The notes under the pieces: generated by a model | Told to the model about the DNA's origin: nothing | Database searches by the model: none | What the model saw: the letters and a program-made list of their open reading frames with translations, nothing else | NCBI RefSeq assembly: GCF_016756315.1 | Contig: NZ_AP024235.1 | Coordinates: forward strand, 2,542,001-2,606,000 | Source of the DNA: Alteromonas sp. KC3 | Lineage (GTDB): Bacteria; Pseudomonadota; Gammaproteobacteria; Enterobacterales; Alteromonadaceae | Length of the DNA stretch: 64,000 nucleotides | Direction of reading: 5' to 3' | Translations under genes and position numbers: made by a program | Shown: positions 40,633-45,589 of the stretch, one piece after another | Layout of the letters: every line of letters starts with the position of its first letter | Position numbering within the stretch: position 1 is the first letter of the stretch

Positions 40633-40676
40633 AAAAAACCCAGCAAATGCTGGGTTCTTAATGTGGTTGCGGGAGC
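40633..40676. repeat. Left 44-bp direct repeat (putative att site)
   Basis: Identical to 45546-45589. It runs from six A through the hairpin CCCAGCA-aa-TGCTGGG to TGGTTGCGGGAGC, the complement of an initiator tRNA 3' end. After this point the sequence leaves the tRNA, so only a tRNA fragment exists here. It can also terminate the minus-strand SCO transcript. Confidence 0.85.
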
Positions 40677-40770
40677 GCGCAACACCTCGTATATACACAT
40701 TGAAATCAAGGATGTTGTGAAGAAATATAGAGACTAGTTCAGATGAGTGCATGTGGATTGTCTGTTCAAT

Positions 40771-41430
40771 TCAATTCATGCTTTGCTTTTTCAATGTTTT
40801 GATATCCTCAATAAGGTAATCAACCGAGGCGGCATTCAGCCCATTGTAAATACCTCGAATGTGCCGGTTTTTATCGATAAGAAGAAGGCTTTCAGTATGC
40901 AGAAAATCCTTATTTTTCTGCACATTGCCAAGATCTTCACTGGCAAAATAGGCTTGTTTTGCGATGGAGTAAATCGCTTCTTTATCCCCGGTGAGTAACA
41001 TCCAGTGTTGGTTGTCGATGCCATTTTTGTCAGCGTAGGCCTGCAACACCTCAATGGTGTCGGTTGATGGACGAATCGAGTGCTGCAATATCTTTACGTC
41101 GCTGTCGTTTAAAAACGTCTCCTGAACTTTAATCAGTTTTGAACGGATGGCCGGGCAGATACCTGGACAGGTACTGAAGAAAAAGCCTGCGACATAGATC
41201 TTGTCCTCAACATCTTTTTCAGTAATGTTTGTACCGCTTTGATCGGTAAAACTGAACGCTGGAATCTTATGAAACGTTTCCAGATTGACGGTGTTTTCCG
41301 ACAACCAGTAAGGTGCAAATGAAGGGTCTTGATAATAAGGCAACTCTTCACTAACGGCATTACTGCTGAGGCATACAATGCTAAGAGTTGCCAGCCTGAT
41401 TGCGATAATAATCCACTGAAATTTTTTCAT
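40771..41430 (-). CDS. SCO1/SenC-like thiol protein
   Basis: 219 residues. An N-terminal hydrophobic segment (about 5-23) exports or anchors it. The thioredoxin-fold domain carries the copper-binding CxxxC in STCPGICP (Cys88, Cys92) and the conserved distal His178 in FLHTESLLLID. Family knowledge: SCO proteins bind copper and help mature the CuA centre of cytochrome oxidase or act as periplasmic thiol reductases. No oxidase genes lie near it, so another target is likely. Its start overlaps the end of the MORN gene by 50 bp; it is the last gene of the YHYH-MORN-SCO operon in the island. Confidence 0.9.
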   Translation of the reverse strand: MKKFQWIIIAIRLATLSIVCLSSNAVSEELPYYQDPSFAPYWLSENTVNLETFHKIPAFSFTDQSGTNITEKDVEDKIYVAGFFFSTCPGICPAIRSKLIKVQETFLNDSDVKILQHSIRPSTDTIEVLQAYADKNGIDNQHWMLLTGDKEAIYSIAKQAYFASEDLGNVQKNKDFLHTESLLLIDKNRHIRGIYNGLNAASVDYLIEDIKTLKKQSMN

Positions 41431-41980
41431 CTTCTAATCCCACACAATTGTTCAATTTTCTGAGGCCGAAAATTCGACCATTCTTGTATTCAAAATTGCT
41501 AAATAATATACCGTTTAGACGCCATGCTTGCTGCAATCCGGAGGGTTGGCCGGCCTCGAAATTAAAACGTTTGAATTTGTTGCCGTTCCGGTACCACAAC
41601 CAGGCCTGACCTTGGGTTTTACCGCTTTCATAAAAGGTTTCTGAACGCTGATTTCCATTAAACCACCAGCTGCGGGTGTAGCCTTCTCTAATGCCATTTT
41701 GGTAATGTGCCTCATATGCCAAGGTGCCATCGGCAAACCACTTGCGGGCCACCCCTTGACGGCGCCCTTCAACGAAATCTTCCCGTGACGATACGTTTCC
41801 ATTGCTGTGATACGAAATGACTTCGCCTGTAAATGGGGTATGATTGTAAACCCTCAAACCGGCGCTATTGACTGAGATTTCCGATGAGTCAACGCGCGAC
41901 ACTTCACCTCTGAATAAAAACACCAGGCAAACCAATAAAAGCAAGCCAAAAAATGTAAATTTACGCCGCATGACTTGCAT
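41381..41980 (-). CDS. MORN-repeat exported protein
   Basis: 199 residues. A membrane or signal helix (about 9-24) precedes a run of about five MORN-type repeats (roughly 48-160): YHSNGNVSSREDFVEGRRQG, WFADGTLAYEAHYQNGIREG, WWFNGNQRSETFYESGKTQG and so on. MORN repeats form flat beta-hairpin ribbons that usually mediate binding. Its ATG overlaps the YHYH stop by one base (TGATG), so translation is coupled. The function is unknown; a structural or partner role in an envelope complex is inference. Confidence 0.85.
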   Translation of the reverse strand: MQVMRRKFTFFGLLLLVCLVFLFRGEVSRVDSSEISVNSAGLRVYNHTPFTGEVISYHSNGNVSSREDFVEGRRQGVARKWFADGTLAYEAHYQNGIREGYTRSWWFNGNQRSETFYESGKTQGQAWLWYRNGNKFKRFNFEAGQPSGLQQAWRLNGILFSNFEYKNGRIFGLRKLNNCVGLEDEKISVDYYRNQAGNS

Positions 41981-42828
41981 CAGTTAACACCGCTGGGTGT
42001 ACCTTGAAAGTTGCCAGGAAAAATCAAGTAGTAATCGCCATTAAGATATTGTTCAGCCGACACATGGTAATGATACTCACCATCCGTTGTAGATGAGTCT
42101 GTAAACTGAGTTACGGCGATATGCCCATTTGAAGCATCTAGACCTTCTGGATATCCATCACTTGAATAACAGCGCCTGCCGTAAATAAAAAATCCGTCAG
42201 ACATAATGCCTACGAGTTTGTCATCATCATATGAAATAGCGCGTGGCTCCAAGTGATAGTGGTATGTTTCAGGTCCCGTGTGCGCACCATTTCGATCAAA
42301 CCCTTGAATAACACCTAGTGAGACATCTCCGTTGCCTTCGGAATCATTAAAAATAGGCGCCCCACTTGTAGCGATACCTATCGCCCCAAGAGGGGTTGCA
42401 GAAGAGTTTGTTGCCAGCTCAGGCTCAATTGGAACGGTCAGTTCGTACACATTAATGTAATCTTCAATGTCGCCTGGCGAGCGCTGCTGGGTGAATAACT
42501 CAGGGTTTTCAGGAGCCACATAAAGGCCACTGGCATTGTCAGCATCCCAATAGGATGAGGTGTGATCGGGCTTACCATTTGATTCTATGACCACCGAACA
42601 TCCATCCGAAGAAAGCACAGCTGTCACATTGGGAGAATAATTAAACTCCAGAAAAATTGGGGGAAGCGATGTAACTGGGTTTACACATGGTTCACTTGAG
42701 ACAGGATCGGTTGTGGGTTGTTCGTTTGAAACAACCACATCTTCTGAAGAGTCGCCACCGCAAGCATTTAATAACGTACACACCGCAAGCACACACAAAG
42801 AACCGGAGAAAAAACGAAGTTGAGTCAT
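41980..42828 (-). CDS. YHYH-domain lipoprotein
   Basis: 282 residues. A lipoprotein signal has lipidation at LLNAC (Cys23), then an acidic/Ser-rich linker. The YHYH domain fills about 75-280, with TYHYHLEPRA near 188 and DGEYHYHVSAEQYLNG near 255, besides GIMSDGFFIYGRRCYS. The paired histidines suggest a metal or small-ligand site, but no activity is known for the family. It is the first gene of the minus-strand operon, and a 24-bp motif shared with the 43306 promoter lies about 55 bp upstream. Confidence 0.88.
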   Translation of the reverse strand: MTQLRFFSGSLCVLAVCTLLNACGGDSSEDVVVSNEQPTTDPVSSEPCVNPVTSLPPIFLEFNYSPNVTAVLSSDGCSVVIESNGKPDHTSSYWDADNASGLYVAPENPELFTQQRSPGDIEDYINVYELTVPIEPELATNSSATPLGAIGIATSGAPIFNDSEGNGDVSLGVIQGFDRNGAHTGPETYHYHLEPRAISYDDDKLVGIMSDGFFIYGRRCYSSDGYPEGLDASNGHIAVTQFTDSSTTDGEYHYHVSAEQYLNGDYYLIFPGNFQGTPSGVN

Positions 42829-44838: not shown

Positions 44839-45524
44839 TGCAAAAAGATACCAGCATTCTCATCGTTGAAGACGAACCCAAAATTGCGCAGATATTGGTC
44901 GATTTCTTCTCCACTGAAGGCTATGCGACCAAGGTCCTGCATGACGGTATCCATGTTATCGATACCGTAAAAACTGCCCGACCCGACTTTGTGATCCTCG
45001 ACGTGATGTTGCCAAATAAAGATGGCTTAACACTTTGCAAAGAGATCCGTCAGTTTTCTGATGTTCCCATTCTTTTGCTGACAGCAAAAGTCGAGGAAAT
45101 CGATCGATTGATGGGTCTGGGTTTTGGCGCAGATGACTATGTATGCAAGCCATTTTCTGCACGGGAAGTAGTGTTGCGTGTATCAACTATTCTGCGCCGA
45201 ACACAAAACAAAGACCCCGACACAGACAATGTGCTCAGGTACAAAAACGTTTCTATCGACTTAGACCGGCATCAATGCACCATCAATGACCATGAAATGG
45301 TTCTTACGCCGGTTGAATTCAAGTTGTTGACGGCCCTTGTCGCAAAGCCTGAACGGGTATTGTCGCGGAATCAACTCATGCACATCTGTTATGAAGACCA
45401 GCGCATTGTCAGTGCACGTACCATAGACAGTCATATGAAAAACCTGCGCCACAAAGTTTCACAGGCGACCGACGGTGTTGAACTTATCCACGCGGTATAT
45501 GGAATTGGCTACAAGTGCAGTTAG
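44838..45524 (+). CDS. OmpR-family response regulator, BaeR-like
   Basis: 228 residues. The receiver (about 6-120) has acidic pair VEDEPK, phospho-acceptor in FVILDVMLPNKDG, Thr in LLLTAK and Lys in YVCKPFS. A winged-helix DNA-binding domain (about 135-226) ends with RTIDSHMKNLRHK and the wing VYGIGYKC. Such regulators bind direct repeats spaced about 11 bp, which matches the two shared motifs in this island. It is translationally coupled to its kinase and ends 21 bp before the right repeat. Confidence 0.94.
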   Translation: MQKDTSILIVEDEPKIAQILVDFFSTEGYATKVLHDGIHVIDTVKTARPDFVILDVMLPNKDGLTLCKEIRQFSDVPILLLTAKVEEIDRLMGLGFGADDYVCKPFSAREVVLRVSTILRRTQNKDPDTDNVLRYKNVSIDLDRHQCTINDHEMVLTPVEFKLLTALVAKPERVLSRNQLMHICYEDQRIVSARTIDSHMKNLRHKVSQATDGVELIHAVYGIGYKCS

Positions 45525-45544
45525 ATTGAGTAAATGGCAGAAAC

Positions 45545-45569
45545 AAAAAAACCCAGCAAATGCTGGGTT
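45545..45569 (-). terminator. Terminator of tandem initiator tRNA transcript
   Basis: AACCCAGCA-aa-TGCTGGGTT with a seven-A run on the plus strand, eight bases from the tRNA 3' end. The duplicate copy lies inside the left repeat. Confidence 0.85.
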
Positions 45570-45589
45570 CTTAATGTGGTTGCGGGAGC
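45546..45589. repeat. Right 44-bp direct repeat (putative att site)
   Basis: Identical to 40633-40676. It overlaps the last 13 bases of the complete initiator tRNA gene, which stays functional because the repeat restores its 3' end. Confidence 0.85.

Follow-up and report, generated by a model that had tools for sequence, protein, structure and literature searches.

A 4.9-kb block at the tRNA-fMet genes of Alteromonas sp. KC3 as a likely remodelled remnant of a serine-recombinase island

Introduction

How did a block of about 4.9 kb that encodes no recombinase come to lie at the initiator tRNA genes of Alteromonas sp. KC3, and can it still move? The block lies in a window of 64,000 nucleotides (assembly GCF_016756315.1, contig NZ_AP024235.1, positions 2,542,001 to 2,606,000), and positions given below are those of the window unless another locus (L number) or genome (G number) is named; the window's own genome, G000, has 4.56 Mb. 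An earlier, sequence-only reading of the window had described the block as an integrase-less island, being either a mobilizable element moved by an integrase elsewhere or a decayed island. Our comparison with related genomes speaks for the second option: it is rather likely that the block is a remodelled remnant of an island directed to tRNA-fMet by a large serine recombinase (LSR).

Results and Discussion

Insertion at the 3' end of tRNA-fMet

The block is bounded by two direct repeats of 44 bp (40633-40676 and 45546-45589), both copies being identical. By chance, about 1e-17 pairs of this kind would be expected in 64 kb (a rough value that assumes equal base frequencies), and a 40-base probe of the repeat found just these two sites and no third copy in the 4.56-Mb genome when up to 3 mismatches were allowed. 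In each copy a terminator with its linker (31 bp) leads into 13 bp equal to the 3' end of tRNA-fMet, and the full tRNA continues from the right copy only. The repeat structure proposed in the sequence-only reading was thus confirmed by the coordinates and by the genome probe. All of these parts are on the minus strand. On the left, the host-type tRNA terminator T0 (40633-40663), presumably displaced by the insertion, is followed by the core repeat TGGTTGCGGGAGC (40664-40676), the last 13 bases of tRNA-fMet and the likely crossover region. On the right, the terminator copy T1 (45546-45576), which is also of the host type and unlike that of LSR islands, precedes the complete tRNA-Met(CAT) gene tRNA-fMet 1 (45577-45653), the last 13 bases of which (45577-45589) form the right core; an identical tandem copy, tRNA-fMet 2, is located at 45708-45784. 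The initiator identity of both tRNAs was recognized by eye from C1-A72 and the GGG/CCC anticodon-stem pairs. Both 31-bp parts contain a terminator-like hairpin (-16.0 kcal/mol with a z score of -5.27 on the left, -16.9 kcal/mol with -5.24 on the right).

The same locus was compared within a sample of 59 Alteromonas genomes, G000 included. It could be laid out in 50 other genomes, while it was broken at the tRNA in G016 and had no match in 7. The site is empty in 29 of the 50, with a hybrid kinase gene 160-411 bp from the first tRNA and, in empty-site relatives of the window's own clade, a hairpin similar to that of T0 between the two. The gap between the kinase gene and the tRNA measures 0.9-11 kb at 15 loci, one of which (L157) matches the kinase only partly, and at the remaining 6 the kinase gene is outside the fetched stretch. 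Among the 12 loci with a kinase at least 67% identical to that of the window, 11 are empty and the twelfth is that of G062. Genes for SCO, MORN or YHYH proteins, which are carried by the window's block, were found at none of the 50 other loci within the fetched stretch. Since 29 of 50 same-genus sites are empty and none holds the window's cargo, the insertion is confirmed: judged from these comparisons, the block is a real insertion, ordinary in its outline, and directed to the tRNA as had been claimed. A cargo shared by all relatives at this place, along with a left repeat derived from a decayed tRNA, had been named as evidence to the contrary; neither was observed, and the left copy continues as the end of an element, not as a tRNA. 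In an ungapped scan of the 21 altered loci, a second tRNA 3' end (13 bp, L149:8746) was detected in G062 only; the far end of the insert lies beyond the fetched stretch in six of the 20 negative loci.

The left end is shared with a serine-recombinase island

The 94 bp directly inside the left repeat (40677-40770, plus strand), comprising an attachment-site (att) arm and about 75 bp more, agree at 88/94 positions (94%) with one end of the island that occupies this tRNA in G062 (L149 8746-18056). The G062 island measures 9.3 kb, is flanked by a 13-bp core and holds other genes than the window's block. Elsewhere at the locus, the identity of G062 to the window amounts to 155/195 positions from tRNA-fMet 2 to PhhB, 101/164 in the PhhB-TonB gap and 18/28 alignable positions in the spacer between the tRNAs; the binomial P for 88/94 versus 155/195 is 1.4e-4. 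In the genus sample the arm occurs in 2 of 59 genomes, G000 and G062 alone. In a sample of the family it was matched in 4 of 395 genomes, 3 of them with an LSR, and no LSR-less copies of the arm were visible as a family in this sample; a match in G473 was dropped from the count, as it lay outside the core and no LSR was found there.

The LSR of the G062 island adjoins the tRNA. It is a 526-aa open reading frame (ORF) with Resolvase, Recombinase and zinc-ribbon domains (L149 16507-18087), the frame of which crosses a terminator and stops within the reversed tRNA, its last residues being VAGAGFEPTTFGL. A larger island with an integrase at the same tRNA, proposed as a check in the sequence-only reading, was therefore found. 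The LSRs encoded in G594 and G475 share 50% and 56% identity with the G062 enzyme and likewise run into tRNA sequence. When 118 bases of G062 were used as query, both genomes matched its first 25 bases at 96%, a stretch made up of 3 bases, the 13-bp core and 9 arm bases, 8 of which match; the recurring part of the arm is GTGCAACAC directly after the core, followed by ATATAC (by eye). The support from these two arms gains weight because both genomes carry an LSR running into tRNA sequence, located 38 and 46 kb from the arm, respectively. The arm and the tRNA part of the core also form an inverted repeat, GTTGC...GCAAC (by eye), and such inverted symmetry is a feature of serine-recombinase sites. 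A 26-base pattern of the left arm gave 0 exact matches in viral contigs.

In comparison to the LSR-island type, the block has the 13-bp tRNA 3'-end repeat at both ends and the tRNA-distal att arm (near-identical to G062 alone, with the short motif in G475 and G594), whereas the LSR gene at the tRNA end and the LSR-type terminator arm are both missing. A tyrosine integrase is unlikely to have moved the block.

The 44-bp repeat and the proposed origin of the block

In G062, G475 and G594, the LSR islands have the core TGGTTGCGGGAGC as their direct repeat as well; repeats of LSR islands are 13 bp long in these three islands and 20 bp in one other. No more than 13 bp are repeated in the three because the terminator on the LSR side is the element's own, and the position of T1 is occupied there by AAAAAAAAGACCCGC...GAGTCT. 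The 44 bp had been taken for a single attachment-site repeat, a view that was not supported: the extra 31 bp of identity in the window are two host-type tRNA terminators. The right junction resembles a tRNA end at which nothing was inserted. Because the right junction is native-like, we read the block as a remnant in which the LSR half was replaced, and not as an intact mobilizable element.

In the course of events that we propose, a G062-like LSR element would have integrated by exchange within the 13-bp tRNA 3' end, leaving host terminator, core and element arm on the far (left) side; sequence comparison shows this arrangement still in place at 40633-40770. Later, other DNA with a host-type terminator and tRNA at its end may have taken the place of the LSR half adjoining the tRNA, and today the block carries the SCO-MORN-YHYH genes and a BaeSR-like pair. 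As a complete gene with its own terminator lies at the right edge, the tRNA should stay functional, and the right junction could represent an attB-like site open to new integrations.

Several observations weigh against this origin. With a GC content of 0.449, against 0.444 and 0.423 in the flanks, the block does not stand out as foreign. A near-identical arm is present in one relative only, G062, with a wholly different cargo, and the BLAST match in G594 and G475 is short (8/9 post-core bases, E about 1e-4 per genome including the core). The 94-bp arm is itself short and could have been exchanged alone, or its likeness could stem from constraint. The loss and replacement of the LSR half are inferred and were seen directly in no genome, and no second strain of the window's species is among the 59 genomes. 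When the two terminator copies were compared to 11 native terminators of the window's own clade, the left copy agreed at more positions with 4 of them and the right copy with 7; by the fraction aligned, the same comparison gave 6 versus 5, with no clear origin for the right terminator.

We also considered that the right terminator came from another clade. A short motif hinted at this (AAACAAAA-type in 17, GAAAAGAAAAAA in 6 and neither in 27 of 50 native terminators), and alignments of whole terminators gave it no support.

Alternative explanations

The block could also be a cis- or trans-mobilizable element that is still moving, with both junctions acting as attL and attR for the LSR of a co-resident G062-like island. 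The LSR-type left junction and the 13-bp core intact on both sides are consistent with this, and integrase-less ssrA islands of Dehalococcoides have been proposed as cis-mobilizable (PMC3146451). Cis-mobilizable elements (CIMEs), as defined in the excerpted text of PMC5704250, resemble the block in being flanked by repeats of the target gene and devoid of integration and transfer genes, none of which was found in the block. The block differs in that its left junction is of the LSR type and its right junction native-like, so that a working attR is doubtful: the right side lacks the LSR-island terminator arm of G062, G475 and G594. The restriction of the arm to 4 of 395 family genomes, mostly together with an LSR, also speaks against this reading. 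Movement by an integrase elsewhere, as suggested in the sequence-only reading, was not supported for the same genome. At E <= 1e-10, G000 gave no match to the G062 LSR. Its one PF07508 protein (538 aa, L170 10808-12424; G000:C1:4556599) is encoded about 2 Mb from the site, with no tRNA in the 16.6 kb around its gene, and 7 PF00589 matches each lie more than 300 kb away. It is possible that an integrase in another cell acted as the mover. Overall we consider continuing mobility unlikely; as the genome search revealed no matching LSR, the block can probably no longer move and the copy in the window is probably dead.

Less probable still is homologous recombination, by which the cargo and a native tRNA end (T1-tRNA) would have been brought from a relative to the side of an old LSR left junction. 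This explanation draws on Aliiglaciecola sp. M165, where YHYH-MORN-SCO genes are placed directly downstream of the orthologous MaoC-TonB-PhhB-tRNA-fMet genes in the same orientation and without a repeat (L064 9563-12074). It is also in agreement with the 20 of 21 altered loci in which the ungapped scan, with the limit given above, detected no second tRNA 3' end. However, M165 has no two-component pair at that place and its YHYH protein is only 69% identical, and of the 16 kinase matches listed for the 59 genomes only the window's is near a placed tRNA-fMet (the tRNA being unplaced in G011 and G064).

A classical tyrosine-integrase island, with the 44 bp as its identity block and the integrase lost, appears very improbable. 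Such islands typically have a long repeat and target the 3' end of a tRNA, and tyrosine integrases are described as tRNA specialists in the portion of the Islander paper cited here (PMC4383910). The left arm, however, belongs to an LSR island, no tyrosine integrase is encoded in the block, and among the PF00589 matches listed for 22 genomes (the 21 altered loci and G000) none is within 50 kb of the tRNA. Finally, a left copy derived from a third tandem tRNA by decay, with nothing inserted, is hardly credible and was ruled out: Alteromonas arrays do hold 1-4 tandem fMet genes (three in several close relatives), but past the 13 bases the left copy runs into element DNA without tRNA similarity, and 29 of 50 sites are empty.

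Serine recombinases at tRNA-fMet in relatives

The G062 island shares with the window the site, the left arm and the 13-bp core, and differs in its LSR, a Mob_Pre relaxase (L149 14262-15374), unrelated cargo, an LSR-type terminator on the tRNA side and a repeat of 13 bp instead of 44 bp. Another relative of its LSR (48% identical) was found at tRNA-fMet in G147, with a 20-bp repeat and a different arm; it was the sole match at E <= 1e-30 in an order-wide sample of 394 genomes. Matches on plasmids and phages were all under 60% identity. From these sequences, one LSR clade seems devoted to Met tRNA, with four islands (G062, G594, G475 and G147) in four genera of one family.

In the window, one frame of the reversed tRNA encodes VAGAGFEPTTFGL and a stop, and another frame GCGSRI and a stop. 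Of the best 120 of 5528 LSR homologues, 81 end with [TA][FY]GL, 6 with TFRL and 18 with G[SC]G[SG][RWQ]I; thus 105 of these 120 end like reversed-tRNA peptides and 15 do not. In the search with the LSR tail, the matches at L024 and L052 were the tRNA itself and no LSR. One may speculate that Met(CAT) tRNA genes are the special target of a sizeable clade of serine recombinases that has drawn little notice. In its members the reversed tRNA would supply the C-terminal residues along with the stop codon, which falls on the anticodon loop; the elements would bring their own terminator and leave recombinase-less daughters, the window's block included, that could be moved again in trans. In this full extent the proposal is doubtful. 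The open-access literature searched held no description of an LSR clade at fMet, and the string GFEPTTFGL did not occur in the open-access papers searched.

Integration by serine recombinases at tRNAs is already known, though described as rare, and an fMet-directed clade with an LSR-less derivative is a variant of it. According to the portions of the reports cited, examples are phage phiRSM1 (tRNA-Ser) and actinomycete integrative and conjugative elements (AICEs) of Mycobacterium (tRNA-Leu), both from a 2011 survey (PMC3218068), as well as the Paracoccus phage Pami6, which has a serine recombinase and a predicted tRNA-Met site (PMC6536676). These share a serine recombinase at a tRNA with the islands described here, but they are phages or AICEs, and the likeness is one of description. 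In the ssrA islands of Dehalococcoides, as presented in the excerpted text of PMC3146451, the gene of the serine recombinase DsiB overlaps the att site at the 3' end of an RNA gene, and 15 sister islands are without the integration module; they differ in their tmRNA target, 20-bp repeat and hosts, and are likened by description, not by sequence. Programs that expect a tyrosine integrase at tRNAs, or any integrase, would be likely to miss such islands. The insertion is more notable than first stated in that a tRNA-directed serine recombinase appears to have moved it, but less notable in that the copy is probably dead.

Some further features of these loci were observed. The Mob_Pre relaxase and the tRNA-directed LSR of the G062 island together are the make-up of an integrative mobilizable element. 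In G062 the kinase gene and the left att junction are separated by an NTP_transf_5 gene (L149 7231-8427), which is absent from the window. Another gene of the island (L149 13346-14116) has a look-alike (by eye) that adjoins tRNA-fMet in G022 (L052 14190-14969), near a transposase-like ORF (by eye) and without a tRNA repeat. In G594 (L181, G594:C9), the tRNA-fMet beside the LSR breaks off near the anticodon, owing to a second rearrangement or an assembly fault. In G016:C63 (L125), the C-terminal 247 aa of another LSR are found beside tRNA-fMet, preceded by a 276-aa ORF that resembles a cut-off tyrosine recombinase and by restriction- and HipA-like genes (all judged by eye); this is a composite or broken island.

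Cargo of the block

Four genes of the block are on the minus strand. They encode a SCO1/SenC family protein of 219 aa (40771-41430; PF02630, 2.8e-23), a MORN-repeat protein of 199 aa (41381-41980; PF07661, MORN_2, 2.9e-9), a YHYH protein of 282 aa (41980-42828; PF14240, 3.8e-12) and an 89-aa ORF (43037-43306) without a Pfam family, which has an N-terminal hydrophobic stretch (by eye). On the plus strand follow a sensor histidine kinase with HAMP, HisKA and HATPase_c domains (43444-44838) and an OmpR-type response regulator (44838-45524). The nearest NCBIfam models of the two are BaeS (NF012163; 2e-101, 340 bits, cut-off 500) and BaeR (NF007982; 285 bits, cut-off 380), and both proteins miss the curated cut-offs. 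The Pfam search detected no recombinase family among the block's proteins, and the G062 LSR gave chance matches only (best E 2.0), with no LSR remnant between the repeats; the earlier statement that the cargo lacks a recombinase is correct.

The YHYH protein was found in 14 of the 59 Alteromonas genomes, or 15 when a weak match in G004 (41 residues, E 2.5e-4) is counted, and kinase matches at E <= 1e-60 in at least 15, with up to 28 candidates scored per genome. All 14 YHYH genomes are among the 15 kinase genomes (Fisher P 1.1e-12, uncorrected for kinship), and the two-component pair adjoins the SCO-MORN-YHYH operon at two other loci (L060 and L124). From this distribution we infer that the BaeSR-like pair may regulate the operon, perhaps with envelope stress as the signal. 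The genus-wide pairing thus suggests a regulatory link that can be tested for three genes about which little is known. The nearest relatives of the cargo in metagenome contigs are a kinase (P0121, 84%) and a MORN protein (P0242, 86%).

On plasmids, YHYH matches were limited to 5 of 72,556 records, all at 29-35% identity. The DNA of the cargo matched 20 plasmid records; among the 8 listed, each match spans 3-4% of the query, and seven are baeR. In the Alteromonas genomes in which they co-occur, the kinase and the YHYH protein are mostly encoded at separate places.

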